A DNA stretch of 64,000 nucleotides, from positions 1,488,001 to 1,552,000 of the forward strand of contig NZ_CP101824.1 in NCBI RefSeq assembly GCF_024498195.1, read 5' to 3'. The stretch comes from Halovivax cerinus. Its GTDB lineage: Archaea > Halobacteriota > Halobacteria > Halobacteriales > Natrialbaceae. Shown here in pieces: positions 2,600 to 8,956 of this stretch (positions within the stretch are counted from its first letter, which is position 1; the number at the start of each line of letters is the position of its first letter). The notes beneath the pieces are model-generated. The model searched no databases and was not told where the DNA came from. It saw only the letters and a list, made by a program, of their open reading frames with translations. The translations under genes were made by a program, and so were the position numbers.

Positions 2600-3505
2600 T
2601 CAGACGAACGCGATCCCGTCGAGGAGGACGAACCCGAGGGCGAGCGCCACGAGCGCGCCTGCGCGGTGAAGTCCGACGTACCGGGGTTGCGGCGTTGCCG
2701 GCTCGCCCCCGCCGAAACCGACGAGCCCCTTCGACACCGTGATGTACGTCGACGCGCCGAGCAAACCGACGATGCCGGCGACGACGAATCCGAGGCCGAA
2801 ACCGATCGGTGCGTCGATCCACCCGCCTTCCCCGAGGACGGCCGACGCGGTCGTCGTGACGAACGCCACCCCGGCGACGAGCGCCGCTCGACACCGGCCC
2901 GTCTCGAAGGAGGCGGTCGTCCCTCCGTAGACGATGGCGGCCGTCCACACTCCCGAGACGGCCACGACGGCCAGCCAGAGCGCTCCGTCGGGAAACAGCT
3001 GCGAGACGGCCGCCATCGGAGGCTCGTACAGGGATCTCGCGTACGATTCCATGTACGTCCATCCCCCGATCGACCGCTCGACCGCGACCGGGCGGACGGC
3101 GTATCGGAGGAGACCGGGCGCCGCGGCGAGGGCGGCGATGCCAACTCCGTCACGGAACGCGACTCTCACGTCTTCGTCGTCCGTTCCTGTACGACCCGCG
3201 ACGAGGACGGCAAGCCCCGCGATCAGGAACACCCAGGCGAGCGGGGCCAGCGCGGCCCGCGGCGTCACCCCGTCGAGGGCGTTACTCGCATCCGTCTCGA
3301 TCGACTGGCGCGGCTCCGACGGCATATCGACGGGGTGGCCCTCCGCGACCTGGTCGGCGACCGCATCGCCGGCGAGCGCGATCGAGGCGCCGTTGACTGC
3401 GCATAGCAGGACGACGAGGACGGCGATGACGCGAAGTCCCTGGGTCCACCCGTCGAACGCCTCGTGTGGCAGAACGAGGGCGCGGAGACTCCGTTTCAGT
3501 GACAT
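2600..3505 (-). CDS. Polytopic membrane protein, YIP1-like, paralogue 2
   Basis: A 301-residue membrane protein and paralogue of the 1343-2305 gene. It has the same N-terminus (MSLKRSLRALVLPHEAFDGW), then a hydrophobic segment at about 25-47, an Asp/Pro-rich loop shorter than in paralogue 1 and without its Cys residues, and about six hydrophobic segments. The conserved core includes AAVSQLFPDG and VSGVWTAAIVYGG. Divergence is concentrated in the first loop and around the residue 150 loop (MESYARSLYEPPM, extra here). It is divergently arranged with the broken membrane gene at 3754, which shares the 250-bp spacer. Function is unknown; a role linked to its divergent partner is plausible only because the pair was duplicated together. 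Confidence 0.85.
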   Translation of the reverse strand: MSLKRSLRALVLPHEAFDGWTQGLRVIAVLVVLLCAVNGASIALAGDAVADQVAEGHPVDMPSEPRQSIETDASNALDGVTPRAALAPLAWVFLIAGLAVLVAGRTGTDDEDVRVAFRDGVGIAALAAAPGLLRYAVRPVAVERSIGGWTYMESYARSLYEPPMAAVSQLFPDGALWLAVVAVSGVWTAAIVYGGTTASFETGRCRAALVAGVAFVTTTASAVLGEGGWIDAPIGFGLGFVVAGIVGLLGASTYITVSKGLVGFGGGEPATPQPRYVGLHRAGALVALALGFVLLDGIAFV

Positions 3506-5382: not shown

Positions 5383-5540
5383 ATTCCTCTATAATTGCCC
5401 GTAGCACGGCTTGTTCACAACGTGTTTTCTATCCCGGTATTGGCGTACGCCTACGAGAGTTGGTGCTTTGAACGGCTCCCACAGCACCCTCGTTGAATAT
5501 TCTATCCGAATAGCTGCTCACTATCATCTATATAAATATT

Positions 5541-5561
5541 TACAAACCGTTATTTATTTAA
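5541..5561 (+). promoter_or_regulatory. Probable TATA/BRE promoter of the halocin-like gene
   Basis: An A-rich, BRE-like stretch around 5542-5548 is followed by TTATTTATTTA at 5550-5560. The T-rich core lies 24-34 bp before the ATG at 5584, the spacing expected of a leaderless haloarchaeal transcript. A second TATA-like run lies at 5529-5540. Confidence 0.5.
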
Positions 5562-5583
5562 GTACATAATTTCAATACTATAT

Positions 5584-6330
5584 ATGGCTAAAACACCAAA
5601 TAGGAGATCTGTATTATCGGCATTGGGAACGGCTGGTAGCGCTTCTTTAGCAGGTGTTACGGTAGAAAAGGGGGGAGCGGAAAACGAGCGGCGAACCGTT
5701 CGAAGTTCAGGCCGTGAGGTGGTCGAGTGGACCGGTGAAAAGAAAAAGGAGGTTGCTTCCACCGCGTCAAATAATAAGATGGTAGCAGCAATTTCAAACC
5801 GATTGAAGCAAAACGGGTGGGTTATTTCCGACAGCAAGCACAGGTCGGGGACCGTTTTGGCTGCCGACGGAGAGGAGTACGATTTCGGCGTCCTATCGTT
5901 CGAATCGGTCATGGAGTCGGAGAGGCAGGCTGCAATTCTGTGGAAACGATATAAAACAGGCGAGTGGGAAGTTAAGGGATACGTGCACAGCAATTCTGAC
6001 AATAACTCGGATAGTGATGTGGTGATTACTGTCGATTCTACGATGAACGTCCGGAAAATCGAATATGAGGGCGGGGCCACAATTGAGACATCTTGTCCGT
6101 GTCTTGATCCCGGTGGAGGAAGTGACTGCGTGTTCTTCCACGATCGCTATTGTGTCGACTTCAACCTGAGTTGTGTACTTTTCGTGATAGGGGCACTTGG
6201 TTTAAGCTGTGGGACTGCGGGGGCTGTCGGTTGTTTAGGGGCAGCGGGTCTCGGTATTGCTGAGTATCTCGCCGGTGATGGGTGTAATATTTGTGACGAA
6301 TATACGGAGGATGAGGTCTTCCTCTGTTAA
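5584..6330 (+). CDS. Halocin C8-like preproprotein (microhalocin precursor)
   Basis: Probably a secreted antimicrobial peptide precursor. The 248-residue product starts with a Tat-type signal (RRSVLSALGTAG, residues 7-18, then a hydrophobic stretch), a hydrophilic middle of about 140 residues, and a 78-residue C-terminal region (171-248) with ten cysteines that ends in Cys as the last residue. In the known halocin C8 family a Tat-exported proprotein is cut into an N-terminal immunity part and a C-terminal halocin of 76 residues, also with ten Cys and a terminal Cys; the layout here matches, with hydrophobic Gly/Ala segments such as LFVIGALGLSC. The gene is clearly more AT-rich than its neighbours and uses codons they avoid (ATA, TTA, AAA), a sign of recent transfer. 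No dedicated ABC exporter or regulator is adjacent. The call rests on architecture, not on alignment. Confidence 0.78.
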   Translation: MAKTPNRRSVLSALGTAGSASLAGVTVEKGGAENERRTVRSSGREVVEWTGEKKKEVASTASNNKMVAAISNRLKQNGWVISDSKHRSGTVLAADGEEYDFGVLSFESVMESERQAAILWKRYKTGEWEVKGYVHSNSDNNSDSDVVITVDSTMNVRKIEYEGGATIETSCPCLDPGGGSDCVFFHDRYCVDFNLSCVLFVIGALGLSCGTAGAVGCLGAAGLGIAEYLAGDGCNICDEYTEDEVFLC

Positions 6331-6419
6331 TGGCTCAAATAATATCGCGTAACCTATTCAGAACCAATAATATATCATAGGATCGAACTCTCTACGCGTA
6401 CAAAATATATCATACAGTA

Positions 6420-6815
6420 ATGGAAGGTAGAACTACACTGTTTGGGCGGCTCGTTTCGAGCTTACTTGCTCGGGAAATAGCCCTATTTATATTTCTGCTT
6501 ATCGGCGGTCACGTCGAGGGCGTCATCGAAGTGGGGGAGTACCTCTCGATCGGTGCTGCGATTCCCATACTAATGGGACTGTTCACCGGAATCGGGTTAC
6601 GATTGTACCTCGGCACCGATTCCGACTGGTCGGCCTTCTTGATCGTATTCGTCGTCTCCGTCGCTGGTATTACGTTCAGTTGGGTCGTCTCGGCCGCGTT
6701 GTTCGGCGACGCGGGCGAATCCGGCCGGATTCCCGGATTCTTTCTCGCGGTACTTCTTGGTAGCGTCCTCGCCCGGGCCTGGAACGCCGGCCGTCGACCC
6801 GGGGTCGCCGAGTGA
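6420..6815 (+). CDS. Small four-span membrane protein next to the halocin-like gene
   Basis: A 131-residue protein with four hydrophobic segments (about residues 19-38, 42-64, 70-96 and 103-120). Function is not recognised. It lies 89 bp downstream of the halocin-like gene on the same strand. The spacer is AT-rich with two ATATATCATA repeats (6369 and 6406 regions), so it may have its own promoter. Base composition changes from AT-rich in the first 30 codons to typical GC-rich afterwards, suggesting the edge of the transferred island lies inside or near this gene. A role in producer protection is possible only by association. Confidence 0.7.
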   Translation: MEGRTTLFGRLVSSLLAREIALFIFLLIGGHVEGVIEVGEYLSIGAAIPILMGLFTGIGLRLYLGTDSDWSAFLIVFVVSVAGITFSWVVSAALFGDAGESGRIPGFFLAVLLGSVLARAWNAGRRPGVAE

Positions 6816-6875: not shown

Positions 6876-8165
6876 ATGAGCACGTATCCGCGGATTTCCG
6901 CGCAACTCGACGACCTGGAGTCGGCCGTCGAGGAGGGTCGACGGAAGATGGAGTGGGCGCGTCAGCACATGCCGATCATGGAGGCGGTCCGCGAGGACTT
7001 CGAGGCAAACCAGCCGCTGGCCGGCGAACGCATCGCGATGGCGATGCACGTCGAGGCCAAGACGGCGATTCTGGTCGAGGCGCTCGCGGCTGGTGGCGCA
7101 GAAGTAGCTGTCACGGGCTGCAACCCGCTGTCGACGCACGACGACGTCTCCGCGGCGCTGGACGACGTCGACGACATCACCAGCTACGCCAAGCGCGAGG
7201 TCGACGACGAAGAGTACTACGCCGCCATCGAGGCGACGATCGACCTCGAGCCGACGATTACCGTCGACGACGGGATGGACCTCGTCGCCGCGATCCACGA
7301 GGACTATCCGGAACTCATCGACGGCATCGTCGGCGGCTGCGAGGAGACGACCACCGGCGTCCACCGCCTGCGCGCGATGGCCGACGACGGCGCCCTGGAG
7401 TACCCGGTCTTCGCGGTGAACGACACGCCGATGAAGCGCCTGTTCGACAACGTCCACGGCACCGGCGAGTCCTCGCTGGCCTCGCTGGCCATGACGACCA
7501 ACCTCTCCTGGGCGGGCAAGAACGTCGTCGTCGGCGGCTACGGCTACTGCGGCAAGGGCGTCGCGAAGAAGGCCGCGGGCCAGAACGCGAACGTGATCGT
7601 CACCGAGGTCGAGCCTCGCCGCGCCCTCGAAGCGCACATGGAGGGCTACGACGTCATGCCGATGGCCGAAGCCGCCGAGATCGGCGACGTCTTCATCACC
7701 ACGACGGGCAACCGCGACGTGATCGTCGAAGAGCACTTCGAGAAGATGCAGGACGGTGTCCTGCTGGCCAACGCGGGCCACTTCGACGTCGAGATCGACC
7801 TCGACGCACTCGACGACCTCGCCGTGGACCGCTACGCGGCCAGAGACGGCGTCGAGGCCTACGAGATGGCAGACGGCCGGCGCCTCAACGTCGTCGCGGA
7901 GGGCCGCCTCGTCAATCTCGCCGCCCCCGTCTCACTGGGCCACCCCGTCGAGGTCATGGACCAGAGCTTCGGCGTCCAGGCCGTCGCCGTCCGCGAACTC
8001 TTAGCACGCGACCACGCGGACGAGTACGACCCCGGCGTCCACGATGTCCCCGACGAACTCGACAAAGAGATCGCCGAGATCAAGCTCGCCGCGGAGGACG
8101 TCGACTTCGACTCCCTGACCGACACCCAGCGCGAGTACATGGGCAGCTGGGATCACGGGACGTAG
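6876..8165 (+). CDS. ahcY: Adenosylhomocysteinase (S-adenosylhomocysteine hydrolase)
   Basis: Reversibly hydrolyses S-adenosylhomocysteine to adenosine and homocysteine in the cytoplasm, keeping methyl-transfer cycles running. The 429-residue product is the usual length for archaeal enzymes. Visible landmarks are the substrate-domain start with MAMHVEAKTAILVE, the catalytic-site stretch AVNDTPMKRLFDN (Lys and Asp), the NAD-binding loop GGYGYCGKGVA near residue 219, and the C-terminal EGRLVNLAAPVSLGHP. ATG 6876 is chosen over an in-frame TTG at 6849 because homologous N-termini begin near here and a T-rich element lies about 28 bp upstream. The last 20 codons are repeated at 8820-8881 beyond a hicBA module, so the gene end looks like a former integration site. 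The gene itself is intact. Confidence 0.97.
   Translation: MSTYPRISAQLDDLESAVEEGRRKMEWARQHMPIMEAVREDFEANQPLAGERIAMAMHVEAKTAILVEALAAGGAEVAVTGCNPLSTHDDVSAALDDVDDITSYAKREVDDEEYYAAIEATIDLEPTITVDDGMDLVAAIHEDYPELIDGIVGGCEETTTGVHRLRAMADDGALEYPVFAVNDTPMKRLFDNVHGTGESSLASLAMTTNLSWAGKNVVVGGYGYCGKGVAKKAAGQNANVIVTEVEPRRALEAHMEGYDVMPMAEAAEIGDVFITTTGNRDVIVEEHFEKMQDGVLLANAGHFDVEIDLDALDDLAVDRYAARDGVEAYEMADGRRLNVVAEGRLVNLAAPVSLGHPVEVMDQSFGVQAVAVRELLARDHADEYDPGVHDVPDELDKEIAEIKLAAEDVDFDSLTDTQREYMGSWDHGT
8103..8164 (+). repeat. ahcY 3'-end direct repeat, copy 1 (inside the gene)
   Basis: The last 62 bases of ahcY before the final stop base match 8820-8881 at 57 of 62 positions. The identical core of 32 bases is 8121-8152. 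This copy forms the C-terminus of the intact enzyme and marks the left border of the 717-bp hicBA segment. Confidence 0.92.
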
Positions 8166-8210
8166 TCTGCGAGCACCGTTCCGGTCCCCTGGCTGAACGG
8201 GAGTGCTTTC

Positions 8211-8465
8211 TTACAGATTTCGATCAAGCCAGTCGAGAAACAGCTGAAAGTCCTTCATACCCGCCTGGGAGCCGACCTTTCTGAGCGTTCCTGTCGAGAG
8301 TTCGTCGTGTCGCGGAACGGGGACGGTTCGTGCGTCCGAATCGTGGTCGGCGGGCGGCTCCCACCGAAGGATGAAGTGATCGCCGTTCACGCGATCGACG
8401 TAGAACGGCCCGCTGTTGACCAGTACGCGCATGACGTCGTCCCCAGAATACGTCCGCCTCGACAT
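8211..8465 (-). CDS. hicA: HicA-family toxin (mRNA interferase)
   Basis: HicA toxins are small dsRBD-like ribonucleases that cleave mRNA and arrest growth unless bound by HicB. The 84-residue product has the family's core: a basic N-terminus, the catalytic-His motif GDHFILRW (His30), then VPVPRHDEL and GTLRKVGSQAGM. It is slightly longer than many HicA proteins because of an acidic loop (ADHDSDART). It follows hicB by 9 bp on the same strand, the order hicB-hicA, so it is probably co-transcribed from the hicB promoter. The pair lies between two copies of the ahcY 3' end, which suggests arrival as a mobile cassette. Confidence 0.9.
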   Translation of the reverse strand: MSRRTYSGDDVMRVLVNSGPFYVDRVNGDHFILRWEPPADHDSDARTVPVPRHDELSTGTLRKVGSQAGMKDFQLFLDWLDRNL

Positions 8466-8474
8466 TCGTCCGTA

Positions 8475-8744
8475 TTACTCGAGTACGTCGGGGAGCGAGT
8501 CACCCGATTCGTTGGATTCGGGATCGATACCGATCGAATCGAGCTCTTCCCGCGTCGGTGGTCGCCCCTCGCCGTCGTATCCGGCTACCGCCTCGTCGAG
8601 ATTCTCTAGTGCTGACTCTCTGGTTTTCCCCTGACTGGTGACACCCGAGTGCTCGTCGGTTGCGACCCACCACTCGTCTTCTTTCGTGAGCGTAATCCGC
8701 TCTTCGGGGTTGGTGGCGTCGTTCGAGCCGATATCGGTACTCAT
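8475..8744 (-). CDS. hicB: HicB-family antitoxin
   Basis: An 89-residue partner of HicA. The HicB-like partial RNase H fold is seen in ITLTKEDEWWVATDEHSGVT followed by GKTRESALENLDEAVAGY. The C-terminus is short and acidic (PESNESGDSLPDVLE) with no clear DNA-binding helix-turn-helix or ribbon-helix-helix, so autoregulation by this protein alone is uncertain. ATG 8744 is supported by an AT-rich, TATA-bearing region immediately upstream (8772-8800). With hicA it forms a two-gene operon inserted at the ahcY end. Confidence 0.88.
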   Translation of the reverse strand: MSTDIGSNDATNPEERITLTKEDEWWVATDEHSGVTSQGKTRESALENLDEAVAGYDGEGRPPTREELDSIGIDPESNESGDSLPDVLE

Positions 8745-8771
8745 GGGCCGTTACGCAAACAGTGCAGCGAT

Positions 8772-8800
8772 ACGCGTATATATCTTCACATATATCGGAA
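8772..8800 (-). promoter_or_regulatory. AT-rich promoter of hicBA
   Basis: Two TATATA-like stretches (8776-8783 and 8790-8797) lie upstream of the hicB start at 8744. The nearer is about 30 bp from the ATG, consistent with a leaderless transcript. The local AT content is unlike the surrounding GC-rich DNA. Confidence 0.5.
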
Positions 8801-8819
8801 CGCGGAGCGATCGGTCGCC

Positions 8820-8881
8820 GACTTCGACGCGCTCACAGACACCCAGCGCGAGTACATGGGCAGCTGGGACCACGGGACGTA
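8820..8881 (+). repeat. ahcY 3'-end direct repeat, copy 2 (orphan)
   Basis: An orphan copy of the ahcY C-terminal coding sequence. The same frame encodes DFDALTDTQREYMGSWDHGT followed by a stop, against DFDSLTDTQREYMGSWDHGT in ahcY. The five differences in 62 bases are mostly at third codon positions, so the copy diverged while under coding selection, probably in another ahcY gene. There is no start codon or gene body before it. Confidence 0.92.
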
Positions 8882-8956
8882 ACTCGGCGCGACGCCTCCC
8901 TGGCGACCGGTAGGAACAATTACTCCACAGCGACGACTATCCGTCACTGTCTCTCG

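Follow-up and report, generated by a model that had tools for sequence, protein, structure and literature searches.

A putative halocin C8-type precursor with a divergent cysteine-rich tail in an AT-rich island of Halovivax cerinus

Halocin C8 is the halocin best described at the gene level, its precursor ProC8 being exported through the Tat pathway and then matured into an immunity part and the 76-aa halocin (PMC11509114). Halocin precursors are activated by secreted serine proteases, and in HalH4 and HapP proteolysis likewise frees an antimicrobial part from a secreted haloarchaeal precursor, in case of HapP the N-terminal part (PMC12893001). Here we analyzed a stretch of 64,000 nucleotides of the Halovivax cerinus genome (contig NZ_CP101824.1, positions 1,488,001 to 1,552,000; subsequently designated the window), which encodes a protein resembling ProC8/HalC8, i.e. 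the proteins described by the models PF22862 and TIGR04449. Both possess a Tat signal, an N-domain of the HalI type and a C-terminal peptide with ten Cys residues and a hydrophobic tail, the last residue being Cys, and in neither case does the locus include a small membrane partner of its own. No homology of the window protein to HalH4 or HapP was shown. The features of the locus are compiled in Table 1.

Table 1. Features of the halocin-like locus; coordinates refer to the window.
Feature	Position	Strand	Basis
Halocin C8-like secreted-peptide preproprotein, 248 aa	5584..6330	+	ORF and homologues in other haloarchaea
Twin-arginine (Tat) signal, residues ~1-34	5584..5685	+	Alignments
HalI/Hac8_like_N-type N-terminal domain, residues ~44-135	5713..5988	+	PF22862 and profile-profile comparison
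C-terminal Cys-rich peptide, residues 171-248, presumed mature product	6094..6327	+	Cys count and invariant Cys
AT-rich island (approximate edges) between membrane permease gene and ahcY-linked membrane gene	5383..6450		GC profile, sister species
Leader, 14.5% GC	5529..5583	+	Sequence, GC
ahcY, adenosylhomocysteinase-like gene, synteny anchor	6876..8165	+	Found in 31/31 relatives searched
131-aa membrane protein, resident ahcY-linked gene, not part of the system	6420..6815	+	Synteny

The reading frame of the halocin-like gene comprises 248 intact codons and starts with an ATG behind the AT-rich leader. Residues 6–11 (NRRSVL) constitute the twin-arginine motif, whose RR is conserved without exception among the seven close members of the family, the window protein included, while a clear AxA signal-peptide cleavage site is absent from the window copy. 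The middle region is devoid of Cys. The C-terminal 78 residues, which are hydrophobic in their middle, contain ten Cys with the spacing C-x1-C-x8-C-x7-C-x6-C-x11-C-x7-C-x16-C-x2-C-x10-C, and at a background Cys frequency of 0.6%, as derived from the acidic ORFs of the window, such a stretch is expected with a probability of about 6e-11. The ORF sequence therefore bears out the layout proposed in the initial annotation, i.e. a Tat signal, a middle region and a 78-residue part with ten Cys ending in Cys. Structure prediction from a two-sequence input reached a pLDDT of 35, and the helices it contains carry no evidential weight.

In Pfam and NCBIfam searches with the window protein no model scored above its cut-off, and no non-bacteriocin family claimed the tail. 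The second match in Pfam was PF22862 (Hac8_like_N), which aligned colinearly with residues 50–126 (E 0.21), but its score of 12.6 bits is far below the gathering score of 27 bits. TIGR04449 (halocin_C8_dom) did not match the window protein; when searched against the whole genome, its sole match was another gene, L119, with 16.1 bits at a cut-off of 24. This gene (L119:7896-8699, minus strand; C1:1748896-1749699, outside the window) encodes a second Tat-secreted protein, which carries ten Cys near its C-terminus, matches halocin_C8_dom weakly over its full length and is located in DNA of normal GC content. A sequence search of the PDB yielded no meaningful match.

To compare the families at profile level, seven window-type proteins were aligned against 15 HalC8-type precursors collected with PF22862. 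The full-length profiles matched with an E value of 4e-6 over 206 columns; none of 100 column-shuffled decoys came near this score and the reversed control failed. The N-domain alone was also recognized, with an E value of 4e-4, or 7e-6 when the wider family was used (0/100 shuffles). For the tail alone, 19 of 100 shuffles equaled the score, i.e. homology to mature HalC8 is not demonstrable. A bridge between both groups is provided by L136: its C-terminus represents a curated halocin_C8_dom (E 9.9e-13, above the cut-off), and the window-type profile matches its N-domain with an E value of 1.2e-4. This split between the parts and the bridging member indicate that the N-domain is common, whereas the tail differs. 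By profile comparison, the N-domain of the window protein is a remote homologue of the HalI/Hac8_like_N domain of halocin C8 precursors, and the protein exhibits the layout of the wider halocin C8 superfamily, a Tat signal followed by a Cys-rich C-terminal peptide. Thus, its initial designation as a halocin C8-like preproprotein holds for the layout and for a remote relationship of the N-terminal immunity/pro part, but not for homology of the tail. The Cys spacing of the tail differs from that of the HalC8 type, represented e.g. by L027 (C-x2-C-x7-C-x3-C-x7-C-x13-C-x7-C-x8-C-x8-C-x5-C). Two proteins of ~700 aa (L047:418-2517 and L051:799-2901) show a weak Hac8_like_N match in front of a hydrophobic, Cys-containing C-terminus.

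The tail falls into a subfamily of its own, consisting of six close homologues and a looser group. The close homologues are Haloferax mucosum L140/L122, L058 on plasmid pHTS138 of Haloterrigena salifodinae, L121, L123, L124 and L126. They share 18–27% overall identity with the window protein and agree with it in layout, RR motif and Cys core. Seven Cys residues (C182, C190, C197, C209, C217, C234 and C248) are invariant in 7/7 members, the window protein included, and an eighth core residue, C237, is kept in six of them; the remaining Cys residues, 171 and 173, correspond to CYRC in two relatives. The shared core reads C-x6/7-C-x3-N-x2-C ... G-x3-C ... C-x2-C ... C. Comparison of the window protein with L058, which has the closest tail, gave 45% identity in the Cys-rich part and 20% in the remainder, and L124 and L126 are 63% identical in the tail and 34% elsewhere. 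The tail is thus strongly constrained, which fits with its being the active product. In the looser group (L127, L130, L131, L133 and L134) both parts are related to the window type.

Strong homologues were detected by search in 6/391 sampled genomes of the class, belonging to several families. A close homologue is absent from four genomes of the same genus, one of which (G100) has a distant member elsewhere. In the sister species G207 the permease gene and ahcY are adjacent with nothing between, and in the sister species G070 the order is permease gene, a further membrane gene, four-span gene, ahcY, with no halocin gene. In almost every genome the family genes are richer in AT than their flanks. 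In the window, the GC content amounts to 0.505 in the ORF, 0.145 in the leader (55 bp) and 0.34 in the trailer (6331-6419) as compared to 0.65–0.69 in the DNA flanking the island, in full agreement with the AT-rich island noted initially. The leader contains a TATA-like stretch, TATAAATA, at 5531-5538 and may act as promoter, judged from its base composition and this element. Acquisition of the island by horizontal transfer is supported. The homologues are sporadic AT-rich inserts and the four sister species lack the gene; inheritance is sporadic rather than widespread and vertical, and the Cys residues are kept. Relatives were found neither in viral contigs or phages nor in a DNA-level plasmid search, leaving a viral origin without support. 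No mobile element was recognized at the island edges in searches of the genome and of plasmids. The segment separating the leader from the stop codon of the permease gene (5383-5528) has a GC content of 0.49 and contains a short ORF (5395-5496); a transposase remnant was suspected here, but no match was obtained in the genome or in plasmids.

As a lone gene in AT-rich DNA without a partner, the ORF might itself be decaying or unexpressed, left behind by an inserted element, and some relatives (L125/L008 and L128/L063) are indeed interrupted by an in-frame stop codon. However, all 248 codons are intact and the conserved Cys, the RR motif and the AT-rich leader have been retained, making decay very improbable.

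A further question concerned the genes downstream. Most relatives have a small ORF of 65–145 aa, assigned by topology to two to four membrane spans, located just 3' on either strand. Counted with a simple hydropathy rule rather than a trained predictor, a gene with at least three spans is present downstream in 13/20 relatives, omitting the window copy, as compared to 1/20 upstream and 0/46 downstream of background genes (a first count gave 14/22 versus 1/106). Some of these relatives are kin to each other, but the contrast holds when counted by type by hand (10/16). Small three- to four-span ORFs are located downstream of L121, L122, L124, L126, L058, L127, L128, L130, L133, L134, L135, L137 and L138, and most window-type members thus differ from the window copy, which has none of its own. 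The small membrane ORFs are often convergent and most of them are AT-rich like their toxin gene. Those ORFs that were scanned matched no known family, blastp detected no neighbor family common to the loci, and the partners are alike only between close toxins (56, 36 and 37% identity). Probably, these genes of the relatives provide immunity.

In the window, a membrane protein gene does follow, starting 90 bp past the halocin-like gene on the same strand, and it could accordingly form a toxin/immunity pair with a halocin-type toxin precursor, as the directional bias among relatives would suggest. The gene at 6420-6815 was in fact first counted as partner through this general association, but was subsequently ruled out by synteny: in five genomes (G070, G405, G131, G390 and G408) its homologues adjoin ahcY in DNA of normal GC content without a halocin gene, so that co-inheritance was not observed. 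Moreover, its AT content is below that of most partner genes in the relatives, to none of which it shows clear similarity. We therefore consider such a pair improbable; of the four-span protein noted initially, its presence is confirmed but not its affiliation with the halocin gene. Since 6420-6815 is a resident gene, the window copy resembles the HalC8 case in having no dedicated partner. According to our own reading of the loci, a membrane partner is present in 0/13 strict HalC8-type loci, in keeping with the self-immunity published for halocin C8. With no small membrane gene of its own, immunity of the window copy would be unexplained unless it came from the N-domain.

Taken together, we favor the view, with a probability of about 0.7, that the gene encodes an exported precursor of the halocin C8 superfamily releasing a new disulfide-rich microhalocin. 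This reading is based on the ProC8 layout, the N-domain homology, the bridge member L136, the conserved Cys and the constrained tail, as well as on the accessory distribution, the AT-rich genes and downstream membrane genes as in toxin/immunity pairs. By analogy to maturation of ProC8 (PMC11509114), the precursor would be exported through the Tat pathway, and an extracellular protease would separate the N-terminal domain from the Cys-rich tail. The released peptide would comprise ~78 residues with a hydrophobic core and presumably four or five disulfides, and might act against related haloarchaea, with the membrane as the probable site of inhibition. The HalI-like N-terminal domain may keep the peptide inactive and/or protect the producer in cis. 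Counted against this reading are the missing AxA site, the lack of demonstrable homology of the tail to a tested antimicrobial, the absence of an own membrane partner and the low-confidence structure prediction. Alternatively, the product could be a non-toxic secreted Cys-rich protein with a role at the surface, in adhesion, redox reactions or signaling, the N-domain serving only as secretion or folding module. The unmatched tail would be compatible with such a role, and so would the weak match of the N-domain model to the ~700-aa proteins, but occurrence as sporadic AT-rich inserts missing in sister species, the combination of one N-domain with several different Cys-rich tails and the directional small membrane partners of relatives render it unlikely.

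Considered as a precursor of a microhalocin, the window protein belongs, on the evidence of its sequence, to the halocin C8 superfamily as a remote but intact representative, whose Cys-rich warhead differs from that of HalC8. More tentatively, and with somewhat less than an even chance, it belongs to a large, polymorphic haloarchaeal microhalocin system, in which one HalI-like secreted N-domain would carry several unrelated Cys-rich warheads, encoded by AT-rich inserts of one or two genes. Immunity would reside in the N-domain in cis (HalC8 type and window copy) or in a small membrane protein encoded 3' (most others). With polymorphic bacteriocin/immunity pairs the family shares the common N-domain, the exchangeable C-terminal part and, in relatives, the small membrane partners, whereas a known polymorphic-toxin trafficking domain was not found and the window copy has no partner. 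If true, a second warhead class on a common N-domain would offer new antimicrobial peptides folding at high salt, and with copies that do or do not have a small membrane partner, self-protection of halocin producers becomes directly testable. The survey of archaeal toxins by Makarova et al. (mBio, 2019) is said to have expanded the halocin C8 family, and relatives of the window protein may already be included therein, which tempers novelty.

Further observations concern the neighborhood. The window contains a tandem pair of similar membrane-protein genes on the minus strand (1343-2305 and 2600-3505), and in G070 the slot of the halocin-like gene, with the permease gene on one side and the ahcY-linked gene for a membrane protein on the other, is occupied by a related copy. 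Located 3' of ahcY are a HicA toxin gene (8211-8465, minus strand) and a DUF7387 gene (8475-8744, minus strand), the latter likely encoding the antitoxin of HicA. By BLAST, the pair is present in G207 and absent in G100, G070 and G361. A second copy of the ahcY 3' end (62/70 identical) is found at 8813-8882, with the HicA/DUF7387 pair between the copies, and the arrangement at 8096-8882 looks as if the end of the ahcY gene had been rebuilt by an insertion.
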